Origin: a virus
Length of the DNA: 27,812 bases
Virus record (IMG/VR): IMGVR_UViG_3300025151_000224
Coordinates: 1-27,812 of that record
Strand: one strand, 5' to 3'
Each line of letters opens with the position of its first letter. Position 1 is the stretch's first letter. The translations under genes and the position numbers were made by a program. The notes below the pieces were generated by a model. It saw nothing but the letters and a program-made list of their open reading frames with translations. It made no database searches and was not told the DNA's origin. Positions 8,379 to 27,727 of this stretch are shown piece by piece.

Positions 8379-9902
8379 TTACTTTAATCCTATTACTTCT
8401 ATTACTGCATTAATTTTACTATTAACACTTCTTCCTGCTACTGAAACCAAGCTATTACCTACTGTATTAGCATATTCATTACCACCTGAATGTGCTGATC
8501 CATAATTAGCATCTACAACAAAGTTTGCATTAGGTGGACAGCCTTGCAAATCTATAGCACCTGTTTCATAATTTATTGTTCCTGTACAAGCACCTTGTAT
8601 ATTACCATGACCATCATCATAGAAAAATGCAGTAGTATTTGGAACTGATACATTTGATCTTTTATCATTTATTGTATCTACAGGTAGCTTTGCAGGAACA
8701 GCAGCTTCTATATCACCTACAGCCATGCTAATAGCACCAACTCCAAAAGGTGTAGTTCCACTTGCAGGTGCAGTTATTGATATTGCTGATGTTGATAAAT
8801 GTTGTCCTGATGTAAATCTTATATCACCATCTACTATACCAACAAAAACCTTTTTATTTAAAAGATTAGAACTTGTTGTATAAAATTGTGCATCTAGTGC
8901 TGCTTGAATCTTTTGTATTAATCCATTTACACCACCAAAATTACCATTTGTAGAATCTGTTGTAAATGTTAGTGTATGATCTGAACCACCATCTACTGCT
9001 ATATCAAAAGCATAAGCAGTTGATGCATCTAAACCTGTAGATGTTGATGCTGTGATCCCTGATAACCCTAGTTCTTGATACCCTGCTTCATAAAACTTGC
9101 CTGATACTGAACCTGCTACAATTCCATCTGCTTCACCTTCTGTTCTAGCATAACCAAAAAAGTTCATAGCCTTGAACAAACCACTGCTTGAACTTTGAAC
9201 AGTAGTATATTTATCAAAATCTGCATAAGCATTAAAGAATGGAAATCTAATTGCAGTATTATCAGAATGTGATGCTTTAGCTGATCCATGTGTTCCTCTT
9301 ATTACTGTAAGCGTATCAGAGTTTATATCTGTAACTTCCATTATTTCATTTTCTACTCTTATTAAATCACCTACTTTAAAAAAATCTGCATCATCTACAT
9401 CTATTTCTGTTTCTGTTCCATCAATAGCTTCTGCAACTAATTGTGCATCACCACCTGCAGGGTTATTAACTGCAACATACATATTAGAATCAGGTGCTTG
9501 GTTTGTAAGTTGATAAGCATTTGCACCTGAACCATCAGTAGAACCAAAGTTTATTTGCCTAAAGTTTGGTAACATCATATAATCACCAACAGCTAGTAAA
9601 AATGTTTGATTAGATAAACCACCTGATCCATCTGTATTAGTATCAGGAGTTCCATCAGCCCATTGTTCTGTTCTAATTTGTATTTCAGCAGATACTATGC
9701 CTGTGTTTTTAATTATCAATGTTTTACAATCTTCTAAAACAGATTGACCTTTTGAGCCACCAAGCACCAATGTAATAAAGCCATTAACATTATCACATTC
9801 TTGCCTTACATTAAAAACATCTTCATACTCACCTGTTTTTGTTGCAGTTAATGTATCTCCTCTTCCTGTTGTTATACTTGTTGTTGTTGTAAAACTTGGC
9901 AT
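8379..9902 (-). CDS. Large beta-rich structural protein, possible adsorption/fibre protein (507 aa)
   Basis: Probable virion structural protein. Three regions can be distinguished. Residues 1-150 are beta-rich with many Thr, Gly and Asn. Residues 155-220 form a compact module (IDVDDADFFKVGDLIRVENE, then VIRGTHGSA) shared with the 426-residue connector-like protein. Residues 291-337 (STAYAFDIAVDGGSDHTLTF) resemble a surface insert of bacterial flagellar hook and flagellin proteins. Lys and Arg are sparse, and the protein is acidic overall. Its place after two fibre-like proteins suggests a cell-surface adsorption or head-decorating role. The exact function is not determined from sequence. Confidence 0.62.
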   Translation of the reverse strand: MPSFTTTTSITTGRGDTLTATKTGEYEDVFNVRQECDNVNGFITLVLGGSKGQSVLEDCKTLIIKNTGIVSAEIQIRTEQWADGTPDTNTDGSGGLSNQTFLLAVGDYMMLPNFRQINFGSTDGSGANAYQLTNQAPDSNMYVAVNNPAGGDAQLVAEAIDGTETEIDVDDADFFKVGDLIRVENEIMEVTDINSDTLTVIRGTHGSAKASHSDNTAIRFPFFNAYADFDKYTTVQSSSSGLFKAMNFFGYARTEGEADGIVAGSVSGKFYEAGYQELGLSGITASTSTGLDASTAYAFDIAVDGGSDHTLTFTTDSTNGNFGGVNGLIQKIQAALDAQFYTTSSNLLNKKVFVGIVDGDIRFTSGQHLSTSAISITAPASGTTPFGVGAISMAVGDIEAAVPAKLPVDTINDKRSNVSVPNTTAFFYDDGHGNIQGACTGTINYETGAIDLQGCPPNANFVVDANYGSAHSGGNEYANTVGNSLVSVAGRSVNSKINAVIEVIGLK

Positions 9903-10702: not shown

Positions 10703-11551
10703 TTATCCTGTATAAATTGATGATGGTAAACTTGTTGCTTTTAAAATAAATGGTGGATGTGATACACTATGTGTGCTTCTTAATCCATAAGATAAATAGG
10801 CTGTTTTAGTAACACCTGCTGTTGAAAAACCTACATAAAATGTATTACTAGCACCTTCACTAGCTAATTGAGATGACTCTAACACCCATTTAACAGTAAG
10901 TATATCATCATCTACTTCATCATCTGTAAAATAAACACCACTAAAATCATACTCAAATTGTTGTCCTATTGAATTATAAGTACTATTATCACTTAACCCT
11001 ACATCAATATTAGTATCTGTAGATGATACATTGATAAAACAGCTTAACTCAATCTCTACCTTACCACTTGGAGGAGTATTAAATGTTATTTGATGTGTAG
11101 AAGATTCTACAGTTAAGCTGTTTTGTATTTCATGTGTTACATGTACATCTGTTGGCTGTAAATATGTATATCCTATTATTTGACCACCAAGTGAATCTAC
11201 ATATGTTTTTACTGTTCTATTAGATGGTATTACTGCATTAGAATTATCTGATACTGCTGATCCTGCTAATGATGTCATTTCAGAACCACCTGCTATACTA
11301 AACTTATCAGTATCTAATGAATCTACATTTGTAATATCATTATCACCAAAATCTACATTTCCACTCATAGTTCCACCTGCTAAAGGCAGTTTAGTGCTAT
11401 CTGATGCAGATACACCTTCAGTAGAGCCTAATACCTCTAAATCTTTTACCCTTACTTTTTCTGTAGATATTTCAAGGGCTGAAACTTTATCACCTGATTT
11501 AACAGGTCTTAAATTTTCATCTATAGTGTTTTGCAAGGTTAAATCATTCAT
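10703..11551 (-). CDS. Tail-fibre-like protein (282 aa)
   Basis: Fibre-type protein. Residues 56-75 contain the phrase LPLAGGTMSGNVDFGDNDIT, a pattern found very widely in phage tail-fibre shafts (LPLTGGTMTG family). A short N-terminal region (residues 1-45) may attach it to the virion, and the C-terminal 150 residues form a beta-rich domain with Ser/Thr-rich loops that is the likely receptor-binding tip. Its ATG overlaps the stop of the 73-residue gene (ATGA), so it is co-transcribed with the lysis cassette. This location, upstream of connector genes and far from the tail tip genes, is unusual for a tail fibre; it might instead be a head fibre. Confidence 0.65.
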   Translation of the reverse strand: MNDLTLQNTIDENLRPVKSGDKVSALEISTEKVRVKDLEVLGSTEGVSASDSTKLPLAGGTMSGNVDFGDNDITNVDSLDTDKFSIAGGSEMTSLAGSAVSDNSNAVIPSNRTVKTYVDSLGGQIIGYTYLQPTDVHVTHEIQNSLTVESSTHQITFNTPPSGKVEIELSCFINVSSTDTNIDVGLSDNSTYNSIGQQFEYDFSGVYFTDDEVDDDILTVKWVLESSQLASEGASNTFYVGFSTAGVTKTAYLSYGLRSTHSVSHPPFILKATSLPSSIYTG

Positions 11552-12265: not shown

Positions 12266-12573
12266 TCACTAAACATCCTTCTCTTGATGTACTCTATATC
12301 ATCATTATTATTTCTGATATTTGCTTCTAAATAATCTAATCTTGTATCTTGTTTTATATCACTTGGTATAGGTGCATCCTGCAAGTCTTTAATTTCTTTA
12401 ATTGTTTGTGTATTTCTATTGGCTTCATTTTCAACAAAAGACATTCTAGTAGTAAGCTGACTATATCCCCAAACCATAGCAGAAATAAATCCAACCACTT
12501 GTATAATCATAGGCAAACTGATATTTAAACTTGTTTTATCACTAATTCTATTATTCATCTTTGTCATTGCCAT
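12262..12573 (-). CDS. Single-span membrane protein with coiled-coil tail (103 aa)
   Basis: A hydrophobic segment at about residues 19-40 (SLPMIIQVVGFISAMVWGYS) is followed by a polar helix rich in Glu, Asn and Arg with heptad spacing, giving the layout of spanin-like or holin-accessory proteins. The start is uncertain: the first ATG overlaps the upstream gene by 23 bases, while an ATG five codons later would give a tighter 8-base overlap; neither has a strong ribosome site. Part of a run of four consecutive membrane-protein genes. A two-component spanin inner-membrane subunit is one possibility, but no nested or adjacent lipoprotein was found here. Confidence 0.6.
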   Translation of the reverse strand: MAMTKMNNRISDKTSLNISLPMIIQVVGFISAMVWGYSQLTTRMSFVENEANRNTQTIKEIKDLQDAPIPSDIKQDTRLDYLEANIRNNNDDIEYIKRRMFSE

Positions 12574-18979: not shown

Positions 18980-20208
18980 CTTGATATACTCCCTGTTATT
19001 GGTTTTATAATTGGGTATTCAAAATCAATAGCATATCTAATCCCATCAGAAAAGTGTGTTCTATCTTTGTTAGATTTGTCTATTTCCCTTGTACCTTCTT
19101 TATTAACTGTTTGTTCTAAATCTGTGATCAACCCCTTACATCTAGGATCAATTATTAAATCTTTTTCACATAGCTTATTAACTGCATTAACTGAATCTAC
19201 AACTCTAGGTGCTTTTGGTTTTACCTTAACATCAAAACCACCTTGTCTTAATATATCATGATCTGTATGTAATGCTGATGTATGTCTTTGATTAGCTGGA
19301 TCAGGATAAGCAATATATTTATTATTAGGATATTTTTTCTTAATTTCTTGCACCATTCTTTCAGTTAAGATTTCATTTCCTCCACCATGATGTAATTCAA
19401 CTTCATCAAACACCCTGACTTTTGGAGAGTGCTGATAGGTTTGGAATATTGATGCAGCCATAGGGCTGACATTGAAATCAAGAGAAATCCTGATTGGTAG
19501 CTGTGGATTGTATTGGTTTTCTTTGACATTATCCTCCCTTGTAAATTGATAATATGTAGCACCCTGTTGCAGGTTTACAAACTCACCATTCAAATATGCT
19601 TTTAATAAGTTCTCATCATAGTTTTCTTTCAAGCTATTAATAAATTCTTCAGGCAACATAGTATTATCTTCTGTTTTACCCCTGATTAATTTATAACCAT
19701 CTTTAGGATTATCACCCCAATACTTATAAACAAATTTAAAGCCTTCAGGTGTTCCACTACCAAATGCTGTTAATGTGTTACCATCTCTTAACCTTGATAG
19801 TAGCATCTTCCATGCTCTATCATCTCTTAACTGATCTGCTTCATCTATACCACCAGCAGCTAAATTTAAACCAGCCCATCTTTCTGAAGATTCACAACTT
19901 CTCATAATAACATCACACCATCCACCCTTCCAATACACCCTGTATTTAGTTGATGTAGCACTATAATCATAATCAAAACCTGCCTGTCTTAATACTGTTT
20001 CAAAGGTGGGTTGCAATACATCTCTGACCATAGGGTAAGTTGGTTCTGCAAGTAATATAGTTTTACCAGCATTTTTAGCACATTGATTTAGTGCCATTAA
20101 ACAAAAACCATAAGTTTTACCTGAACCATACCCACCTATTAAGAATGGATATTTATCCTCACACATAACATAATCTAATTGATGTTGAAATAATTTAAAG
20201 GAGTTCAA
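18976..20208 (-). CDS. terL: Terminase large subunit (410 aa)
   Basis: ATP-driven DNA packaging motor and headful nuclease. The Walker A motif GGYGSGKT lies at residues 25-32, Walker B plus catalytic Glu in GGIDEAD at 119-125, and the coupling motif SGTPEG at 151-156. The C-terminal RNase H-like nuclease has candidate metal-binding Asp residues in SLDFN (D244), YPDPAN (D303) and HFSDGIRYAIDF (D388). The start codon is TTG preceded by GAAGGG about seven bases upstream, overlapping the small subunit by 14 bases. The order small subunit, large subunit, portal is canonical. Confidence 0.95.
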   Translation of the reverse strand: MNSFKLFQHQLDYVMCEDKYPFLIGGYGSGKTYGFCLMALNQCAKNAGKTILLAEPTYPMVRDVLQPTFETVLRQAGFDYDYSATSTKYRVYWKGGWCDVIMRSCESSERWAGLNLAAGGIDEADQLRDDRAWKMLLSRLRDGNTLTAFGSGTPEGFKFVYKYWGDNPKDGYKLIRGKTEDNTMLPEEFINSLKENYDENLLKAYLNGEFVNLQQGATYYQFTREDNVKENQYNPQLPIRISLDFNVSPMAASIFQTYQHSPKVRVFDEVELHHGGGNEILTERMVQEIKKKYPNNKYIAYPDPANQRHTSALHTDHDILRQGGFDVKVKPKAPRVVDSVNAVNKLCEKDLIIDPRCKGLITDLEQTVNKEGTREIDKSNKDRTHFSDGIRYAIDFEYPIIKPITGSISR

Positions 20209-20506
20209 CCTTAAACCCTTCAGGTAATTCTGTTGTAGTTATTTCCTGCTTTTCAGTTTGTCCTAGATACTGCTTTCCTAACCATATAAGAAGTGTAGCA
20301 TTACCACTTAATGCACTATCTATTTGTGCTTTTCTCAACTTCTTTTTTAACTGTGATCTGCCTTTTGTAATATTTGTGGAATAACTTTTACTAATCAGGT
20401 CTTTACTACATCCAAAGAAATCAGCTATTTCTGTATTGGTTAAACCATAAGATGCTAACTTTTCTAATTCCAATGTATCAATATCATACTTTTTAGGTCT
20501 AGCCAT
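20195..20506 (-). CDS. terS: Terminase small subunit (103 aa)
   Basis: DNA-recognition subunit of the packaging motor. The N-terminal half has a helix-turn-helix typical of small terminases (KLASYGLTNTEIADFFGCSK, about residues 16-35), preceded by MARPKKYD, a very common start in this family. A central helix (LRKAQIDSALSGNATLLIWL) leads to LGKQYLGQTEKQE and a C-terminal strand. These features recur in small terminases of many phages. It is the first gene of the late head block, after a 73-base non-coding gap. Confidence 0.88.
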   Translation of the reverse strand: MARPKKYDIDTLELEKLASYGLTNTEIADFFGCSKDLISKSYSTNITKGRSQLKKKLRKAQIDSALSGNATLLIWLGKQYLGQTEKQEITTTELPEGFKVELL

Positions 20507-20579: not shown

Positions 20580-21203
20580 TTATAGCTCAAATAAATCTTG
20601 TTGCTCTGTATCTAATTTTGTTTTTATCTCCATAGCTAAATTAAATATATGCAATCCATCTTTAGGATGCACACAATTTCTTAAAGCTAATGTTTTATTA
20701 ATGCCTTTATATTTTGAAATATCAATACCTAATTTTTTTTCTAATATATTATTTTTTTCTTTAAAATTCCTTGTTTCTTTTTTTTGACCACCTATAAAAA
20801 AATTACTCCAATAATAGTGTTCTTTATATAAATATGGTTTTATCAATGGATCATACCAGCTTATCACATTTTCTACAACCCATCTTTTTTTAAAATATCC
20901 TTGTAATAATAATATTTCCTCATATAACATCATATTAGGATAGACAGGTGGATTTTGATGATGAGCTGCTTTTCTAGCTCTACTATGTGTAGGGCAAGGA
21001 GGGGAAGCCCAAATAAAATCATATTCTTCAAAATGATCTAATAAATATTGATGTGCATCTCCTACAACAATATTATCATTAGGAAAAAAGTCTTGATATA
21101 TTTTAGCAATATCAGGGTTAAGTTCTACTGCTGTTACCTCAATATCCCCCCCCCATAATTTTCTATTTCCACCAATACCAGCATATAAATTTAATATTTT
21201 CAT
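20580..21203 (-). CDS. C5-cytosine DNA methyltransferase, compact (207 aa)
   Basis: Methylates cytosine at carbon 5 using S-adenosylmethionine. Motif I is at LNLYAGIGG (residues 4-12), motif IV with the catalytic Cys at SPPCPTHS (67-74, C70), and motif VI at VVENV (109-113). The protein ends soon afterwards, at 207 residues against 300-450 for stand-alone enzymes, so the target-recognition domain is very small or unusual. Codons for W17-G18-G19-D20 form a run of nine G, which could slip and turn the gene on and off. It overlaps the RusA gene by 4 bases. Possible roles are protection from host restriction or DNA modification for control. The link to the CG shortage in this genome is discussed separately. 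Confidence 0.85.
   Translation of the reverse strand: MKILNLYAGIGGNRKLWGGDIEVTAVELNPDIAKIYQDFFPNDNIVVGDAHQYLLDHFEEYDFIWASPPCPTHSRARKAAHHQNPPVYPNMMLYEEILLLQGYFKKRWVVENVISWYDPLIKPYLYKEHYYWSNFFIGGQKKETRNFKEKNNILEKKLGIDISKYKGINKTLALRNCVHPKDGLHIFNLAMEIKTKLDTEQQDLFEL
21146..21154 (-). repeat. Nine-G homopolymer inside the methyltransferase gene
   Basis: Nine consecutive G on the coding strand, in the fifth of the gene nearest the start. It is the longest G or C run I noticed in the AT-rich window. One-base slippage would shift the frame after residue 19, upstream of motif IV, and inactivate the enzyme. Such tracts drive phase variation in bacterial methyltransferases. Confidence 0.9.
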
Positions 21204-21610
21204 ATTTCCTCTATTATTATTTCAGTTCTAGGTTGCTTACTATAAACCTTTTCAGCTTGTATTCTGCATATCTGACTATCATCTAATATCATTCTATCTT
21301 TGCCCTGAATAGTATCACATATCATCTTCAATAAATTATCTAAATCAGGTATATTTGTATGATATTCAGGAACTCCATCTTTTAAAACATTTGCATATTT
21401 ACCTGTTCTAAAGTGTTTTTTTGGTCTAGGCATATAGAATGTAGCAAAAAGCATAATCTGCCCTTCTAGGGGTCTTTTTGGCTTAAATCTAGCTATTTGT
21501 AGCCATATCTGTTTCTTATCTTTAGCACTTGGATCATACATTCTACCTGATCTAGTGCTTCTATGTCTTTTTAAAGCAATAGGTTTGCCTTTTATTGTAA
21601 ACTTAATCAA
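21200..21610 (-). CDS. rusA: Holliday junction resolvase RusA family (136 aa)
   Basis: Endonuclease that cuts Holliday junctions and branched DNA, needed to tidy concatemers before packaging. The family core IPDLDNLLKMICDTIQG (residues 87-103) contains two acidic ligands (D89, D91), and a third cluster follows at ILDDSQI (D110, D111), as in Escherichia coli RusA with its three metal-binding Asp residues. The N-terminus MIKFTIKGKPIALKRHRS is typical. Start is TTG, overlapping the small lipoprotein stop by 8 bases, with a weak ribosome site, suggesting translational coupling. It precedes the methyltransferase. Confidence 0.9.
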   Translation of the reverse strand: MIKFTIKGKPIALKRHRSTRSGRMYDPSAKDKKQIWLQIARFKPKRPLEGQIMLFATFYMPRPKKHFRTGKYANVLKDGVPEYHTNIPDLDNLLKMICDTIQGKDRMILDDSQICRIQAEKVYSKQPRTEIIIEEI

Positions 21611-26562: not shown

Positions 26563-27081
26563 CTAATATGATGTTCCTGTAGATATAGATGTTACCTGTG
26601 GTGCAGGTGTAGGTGTAGCTAAAACTATATCATCTAATTGTTCTTGTGATATTTCTCCTGATAAATATTCATCTGCTAATATTTGATTAGGTTTTTTACT
26701 AGGCAAAATTATTGTTCTAACAATAACTCTATCTTTTGTATATGTAGTATCCATATCATCTATATTTATTGTAGCATCTTCTGCATTAGTATTTACATTC
26801 TGTATGTAATCATTTTGCTCATTTATAGTTACAGATATAAAATCTGCATTAGAATCTACTGCTCTTACAGATGTTATTCTAAATTCTCCTACATAATCAA
26901 ATAAATCTGCTAATATTCCTGTACCTAGTGGATAAAATATAACCCTGTTATTTTTAGCAGTTACTACAAATGAATCAGTTGTTTTATCTGTTATTTCTAT
27001 TGCACCTGTAAAGTTTATTTGTATTGCTCTAATATCACCTTGCACACTACAATTACCATCACCATAATATAAATTAGCCAT
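26563..27081 (-). CDS. Tail-region structural protein (172 aa)
   Basis: Acidic beta-rich protein with regularly spaced strands, starting MANLYYGDGNCSVQGDIRAI. A C-terminal helical hook reads YLSGEISQEQLDDIVLATPT and may dock onto a neighbour. The gene overlaps the dockerin-domain gene by 8 bases and has a TAGGAGA site. It is probably a tail-tip component co-expressed with the dockerin-domain protein and the 344-residue protein. No named family. Confidence 0.6.
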   Translation of the reverse strand: MANLYYGDGNCSVQGDIRAIQINFTGAIEITDKTTDSFVVTAKNNRVIFYPLGTGILADLFDYVGEFRITSVRAVDSNADFISVTINEQNDYIQNVNTNAEDATINIDDMDTTYTKDRVIVRTIILPSKKPNQILADEYLSGEISQEQLDDIVLATPTPAPQVTSISTGTSY

Positions 27082-27727
27082 GTAAAATTCTCCTACTCAA
27101 TTCAATTACATCATGCTTTGTTATTTCATCAGTTTTATTTATATCAGCATATTTAGGTTTATTAATTGTCTTGCCTTGCACTACATGGTCTGATAATGCT
27201 ACTAAATCCCTTAAATCTATAACACCATCACCATTTACATCACCTAAATTATTTGATGGCTTATATTCAAATCTAACAAATATTTCTTGTGCTATAGAAT
27301 TATTAACAATTACTTGAAATATTATATCAAATGTTTGATCTTGACCTGAATCTTGTATTTTAAATAATTCTGTTTCAAAATTAACAAATTCTAATATTTG
27401 CTGGGTAGCATCTACATCTAATTCTAAAGGTATATCAATTTTATTTAATAATATATCTACACCTTCATTATAGGTTTTTACTTTTAAACTAGCATTGTTA
27501 TAATATATTTTTTCATCATCTTTATCTGTTTCAATACCTAAATTAAATGTAATATTTTCTACTGATAAAACACCATCTACTATTGATGGAATTATTAAGG
27601 TGCTATCTATAATAATACCATTCTTTCTAATTACACCTATTCTTTGACCATTAGTATAACTTAAAGTGCCTAAATAATACTTATCTTCTACTTTTGCAGG
27701 TTTTATATTTGCTGAATTTATTATCAT
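27074..27727 (-). CDS. Tail protein with C-terminal dockerin-like calcium-binding domain (217 aa)
   Basis: Residues 1-155 form a beta-rich domain (TYNEGVDILLNKIDIPLEL and VIVNNSIAQEIFVRFEYKP) resembling cohesin-like or Ig-like folds. Residues 161-217 look like a type I dockerin: two 12-residue EF-hand-like loops, D163-VNGDGVIDLR-D174 and D195-INKTDEITKH-D206, each followed by a helix (LVALSDHVV and VIELSRRIL). Dockerins bind Ca and dock onto cohesins in cellulosomes. In this phage the domain may join tail proteins or bind a host surface glycoprotein. The ATG overlaps the TGA of the large tail gene across the circle junction. Confidence 0.85.
   Translation of the reverse strand: MIINSANIKPAKVEDKYYLGTLSYTNGQRIGVIRKNGIIIDSTLIIPSIVDGVLSVENITFNLGIETDKDDEKIYYNNASLKVKTYNEGVDILLNKIDIPLELDVDATQQILEFVNFETELFKIQDSGQDQTFDIIFQVIVNNSIAQEIFVRFEYKPSNNLGDVNGDGVIDLRDLVALSDHVVQGKTINKPKYADINKTDEITKHDVIELSRRILHG

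Follow-up and report, generated by a model that had tools for sequence, protein, structure and literature searches.

Phase variation has mostly been studied in bacteria, and the receptor-binding proteins of phages are a recent exception. Poly-G tracts have reportedly been listed in many phage genera, and hence the occurrence of such tracts in phages is not in itself new. Two reports describe experimental demonstration of poly-G phase variation of receptor-binding proteins in Campylobacter (Fletchervirus) phages (PMC11868660, PMC11959909). Phase-variable methyltransferases are well known in bacteria, an example being the poly-G Type IIG enzyme cj0031 of Campylobacter (PMC4889913). Orphan phage methyltransferases are among the most often variable genes of cryoconite phages (PMC7468147), and a 2026 review of prokaryotic methyltransferases, in the part of its text covered, names no phase-variable phage enzyme (PMC13076061). 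Poly-G switching thus has precedents both in phage receptor-binding proteins and in bacterial methyltransferases, but no prior report of the combination, a phase-variable phage methyltransferase, was found in the open-access literature, most subscription papers lying outside this scope.

The locus described here lies in a viral contig of 27,812 nucleotides (the window, by which we mean the whole stretch of DNA analysed). Slippage-driven phase variation of its methyltransferase gene has good support across the gene family and is probable in this phage. The locus resembles the Fletchervirus system in having a poly-G tract in a phage coding region, the length of which would set the reading frame and give rise to a mixed phage population. 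In Fletchervirus, switching affects a receptor-binding protein and was established by experiment, whereas the gene here is a methyltransferase known from metagenomes, which places the locus outside that class. As with the mod/phasevarion enzymes and cj0031, a simple-sequence tract within the gene would switch a DNA methyltransferase, but those enzymes are bacterial and, for the most part, adenine methyltransferases from restriction systems, whereas this one is a 207-amino-acid C5-type protein in a phage, with no restriction-system nuclease noticed beside it (the neighbours are a RusA-like and a terminase small subunit-like gene). The orphan phage methyltransferases of the cryoconite study are likewise phage-borne and taken to counter host restriction, but the part of that article drawn on describes no switch for them (PMC7468147).

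The window is a tailed-phage contig, with matches to terminase subunits, a RusA resolvase, a replication initiator and major head, tail tube and tape-measure proteins. The stop codon of the RusA gene overlaps the start codon of the methyltransferase gene (ATGA). Residues 1 to 113 of the methyltransferase matched PF00145 (E value of 1e-7; 32 bits against a curated cut-off of 22), and the open reading frame (ORF) matched phage DNA methyltransferase families, including phrog_363. An AlphaFold model with a pLDDT of 92.6 aligned over nearly its full length with DNMT3A (Z of 15.3), M.HhaI (Z of 14.4) and M.HaeIII, the range of Z scores being 13.9 to 15.3. Motifs I, IV (Pro-Cys) and VI (Glu-Asn-Val) of C5 methyltransferases were present in order on the methyltransferase fold, and the motif I glycines, the motif IV Pro-Cys and the motif VI Glu-Asn were invariant across 80 aligned homologues. 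The best reading of the sequence is a predicted orphan phage C5-type methyltransferase. The coordinates of these features are given in Table 1.

Table 1. Positions of the proposed switch, the methyltransferase gene and its neighbours in the window.
Feature	Position	Strand	Basis
G9 tract, proposed slippage switch	21146..21154	-	Run scan and frame arithmetic
C5-cytosine-methyltransferase-like gene, 207 aa, ON (in frame) here	20580..21203	-	PF00145, phrog_363, AlphaFold model
Motif I, LYAGIGG, residues 6-12	21168..21188	-	Invariant columns, 80 homologues
Motif IV, SPPC, residues 67-70, presumed catalytic Cys70	20994..21005	-	S67, P69 and C70 invariant
Motif VI, ENV, residues 111-113	20865..20873	-	E111 and N112 invariant
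Methyltransferase body, diverged allele in L008 and L009	20600..21118 (approximate)	-	Sliding identity
RusA-like resolvase gene	21200..21610	-	PF05866, E value of 9e-23
Terminase small subunit-like gene, next downstream	20195..20506	-	phrog_309, E value of 9e-7

A run of nine Gs at W-G-G 17-19 of this gene had been reported in an earlier note on this DNA and was confirmed between motifs I and IV. The run reads as C9 on the plus strand and as G9 on the coding strand, occupies exactly nucleotides 50 to 58 of the ORF and encodes W17, G18, G19 and the first base of D20, in a loop between strand 1 (residues 2 to 6) and strand 2 (residues 22 to 27). In a contig with a GC content of 30%, it was the sole G or C run of six or more nucleotides within the 27.8 kb of the window, and 3 of 400 sequences simulated at that length under a first-order Markov model contained a G9 or C9 run. 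GGG represented 27 of the 533 Gly codons counted (5%), and the tract contained the single GGG-GGG pair among the Gly-Gly pairs counted. As in known poly-G phase-variable genes, the tract is a long homopolymer within a coding region and its length sets the frame. Frame arithmetic indicated that the methyltransferase frame would be open with 9 Gs (or with 6 or 12), while with 7, 8, 10 or 11 Gs translation would end at 20 to 23 amino acids, a product that would retain motif I, which lies upstream of the tract, as its sole motif and would lose motif IV with Cys70, so that no enzyme would be made.

The exact switch haplotype was detected in three other contigs, which are the nearest relatives with an intact gene. 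All four contigs had an in-frame G9 tract without the synonymous interruption that, according to the earlier note, would have spoken against a switch. Comparison of the window with two further relatives of this phage (L008 and L009) detected 88 to 100% identity over RusA and the first ∼85 nucleotides of the methyltransferase gene, 47 to 78% over the body of the gene and 95 to 100% just past its end. These identities indicate that a diverged allele has taken the place of the body in L008 and L009 and that the start of the gene, with the tract, has been retained. Bacterial mod alleles have differing recognition domains behind a common repeat tract, and the exchange of the body behind a retained switch may parallel this arrangement.

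Relatives were sought in IMG/VR by a scan for the coding motif GIGGNRKLW, whatever followed it, which returned at least 120 stretches, and by scans for tracts, which returned 19 and 45 stretches. Among the motif matches listed, the length of the G run after the Trp codon was mostly 2 to 4, and long tracts were present in L048 (G12, at the contig end) and L052 (G7, two codons further on). Contigs were sorted by frame across the tract, with a tract defined as a run of at least 7 and no contig entered more than once. Tract-bearing contigs (n = 46) were in frame in 35 cases and out of frame in 11, whereas among the matches listed all 120 tractless contigs were in frame and none was out of frame (Fisher P = 2.8e-7, for contigs that are not all independent). 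One of the OFF contigs, L194, was found apart from the other ten. Without it, the tract-bearing contigs formed 27 protein clusters; the representative was an OFF copy in 8 of these, and two others contained both states. A rough background of broken copies was provided by L041, L066, L102 and L161, in which the gene was in frame at the linker and ended early further on.

The ten OFF copies other than L194 had an intact downstream frame of 174 to 195 amino acids. Comparison of L178 (G9, OFF) with L182 (G8, ON) detected 10 synonymous and no nonsynonymous differences over 174 codons, and 42 synonymous differences and 1 nonsynonymous difference were detected over 175 codons between L189 (G9, OFF) and L164 (G8, ON). 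The OFF copies are under purifying selection and exhibit no decay, which indicates that they were switched off recently, that switching back is frequent or that slippage still allows their expression. Comparison of tract lengths between relatives, as proposed in the earlier note, therefore yielded both in-frame and out-of-frame lengths, and in the gene family these give ON and OFF alleles. The proposal of a slippage switch held for the family, in which there were near-identical ON/OFF pairs and two tract lengths in one genome, but was not mirrored in the window's own clade, where the tract was G9 throughout; its operation in this phage is deduced from the gene family.

No tract was present in the nearest cultured phages inspected (two Vibrio phages, one Gordonia phage and one Flavobacterium phage), and the plasmid search gave no match. 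Only three matches came from the genome collection: a Woesearchaeota genome and two MAGs, one of Campylobacterales and one of Elusimicrobia. The Campylobacterales MAG (G001, ∼2.6 Mb; tract L162) contained this methyltransferase gene with an in-frame G9 tract as well as many other runs of eight or more Gs.

Two tract lengths were detected in a single contig, IMGVR_UViG_3300033463_000374. This contig is classed in IMG/VR as lacking end repeats, but its ends overlap by 160 bp and are identical save for C9 versus C10 in the tract. Other contigs were broken at or near the tract. L002, which encodes a protein 80% identical to that of the window, starts at the base following the tract. Both ends of L048 (IMGVR_UViG_3300002449_000050) lie in homopolymers, with the G12 tract at 12395-12406 followed by the contig end three bases later and with a C7 run (L048:1-7) that immediately precedes motif I of another methyltransferase, identified by eye as Dcm-like. 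Mixed tract lengths could cause such breaks, but we treat the breaks as supporting evidence only, because they could equally result from low-quality reads over the Gs.

It could be argued that mistakes in sequencing or assembly at long G runs gave rise to the OFF alleles and the contig breaks and that the tract is simply two rare GGG codons. G homopolymers are error-prone, and poor reads could account for the ends of L002, L048 and L150 at or near the tract. Errors would not, however, be expected to concur between samples, and G8 was present in L182, L183, L186 and L187 from four different samples, with G9 in L178. Moreover, a survey of 1.155 Mb of phage contigs sampled regardless of the tract detected 13 runs of eight Gs or Cs, 7 of which were inside open frames of 132 to 543 codons that passed straight through them. 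Nor would errors explain the recurrence of the tract in distant lineages or the scarcity of tracts of length 7, both of which are described below. Overall, we consider error an improbable explanation; some of the OFF copies could nonetheless stem from misassembly.

Recurrence of the tract was examined on a tree built on the part of the gene after the tract, by a quick search without bootstrap and without distinction between gain and loss; tract presence required 17 changes, and at least 9 of these were forced by well-supported branches. In L052 and the L166 group, the tract sits two codons further downstream, which argues for a separate origin. A single contig, the out-of-frame L194, had a run of 7 beside the Trp codon, versus ∼37 contigs with a run of 8 or more. 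This near-absence of length 7 is the opposite of the expectation from codon usage, under which GGG is rare and 7 would be favoured over 8 or 9. Apart from the tract itself, no G or C run longer than 8 was present in the survey of phage contigs, and a control scan for runs at motif IV detected none, with a pattern (W-[AS]-S-P-P-C-P) that may be stricter than the test pattern. We rejected a chance origin of the tract because long runs were scarce in the background, length 7 was nearly absent and the motif IV scan was negative. Separately, contig L050 was observed to have three G8 runs within 240 bp (at 2139, 2355 and 2368), outside long open frames.

A further explanation is programmed slippage by RNA polymerase or the ribosome, whereby ON and OFF genomes would both make some enzyme and the length of the tract in the DNA would matter little. 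Polymerase can slip on long G runs, and continued expression of this kind would fit the purifying selection on OFF copies. The DNA length differs, however, between near-identical relatives and inside one contig, and most copies are in frame, which would be needless under such a mechanism. Programmed slippage is therefore very unlikely to be the main explanation, and it can coexist with phase variation. Hardly credible is the last alternative, a Gly-Gly loop required by the protein, with GGG codons arising by neutral chance and OFF genes dying: the loop follows motif I and W-G is found in many homologues, but loop length and residues vary, W-S, W-E, W-T, W-K and W-D are common too, GGT and GGA, which constitute 89% of the Gly codons of the window, are both unused at the tract, and the OFF genes exhibit no decay.

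Under phase variation of the methyltransferase, with the G9 run as a switch of the contingency type, the tract would gain or lose a G at a raised frequency during phage replication, presumably in a reversible manner. The descendants of one phage would then be a mixture of ON phages, with cytosine methylation at the target of the enzyme if it is active as predicted, and OFF phages without such methylation. ON phages would most likely evade host restriction, and OFF phages may avoid modification-dependent defences or a cost of the enzyme. A hedge against restriction, as suggested in the earlier note, is a plausible purpose for such a switch. We regard as evenly balanced the wider proposition that a poly-G switch has arisen separately in numerous unrelated phages at the same loop of a small C5 methyltransferase, that these phages retain the switch when the body of the enzyme is exchanged and that some of them possess another gene switched by poly-G/C, whereby mixed modification states would hedge against both restriction and modification-dependent defences. 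If this is true, a recurrent phase-variable phage methyltransferase would amount to a hedge by phages on how their own DNA is modified, and this would bear on the coexistence of restriction and anti-modification defences.

A second G9 tract was observed in L154 (IMGVR_UViG_3300008218_000007) at positions 9489-9497, ∼1 kb from the methyltransferase tract, and L159 likewise had a second tract at 10737. The tract in L154 is within a PAPS-reductase-like gene whose frame is broken just after it (62 amino acids, followed by 204 amino acids in another frame), and is a candidate for a second switch in the same phage. A general association of tracts with PAPS-reductase-like genes was rejected, as the tract was present in one phage only. 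Elsewhere in the window, a 217-amino-acid ORF at 27074-27727 had a C-terminal match to dockerin type I (PF00404, E value of 4e-9), which is unusual near phage replication genes.
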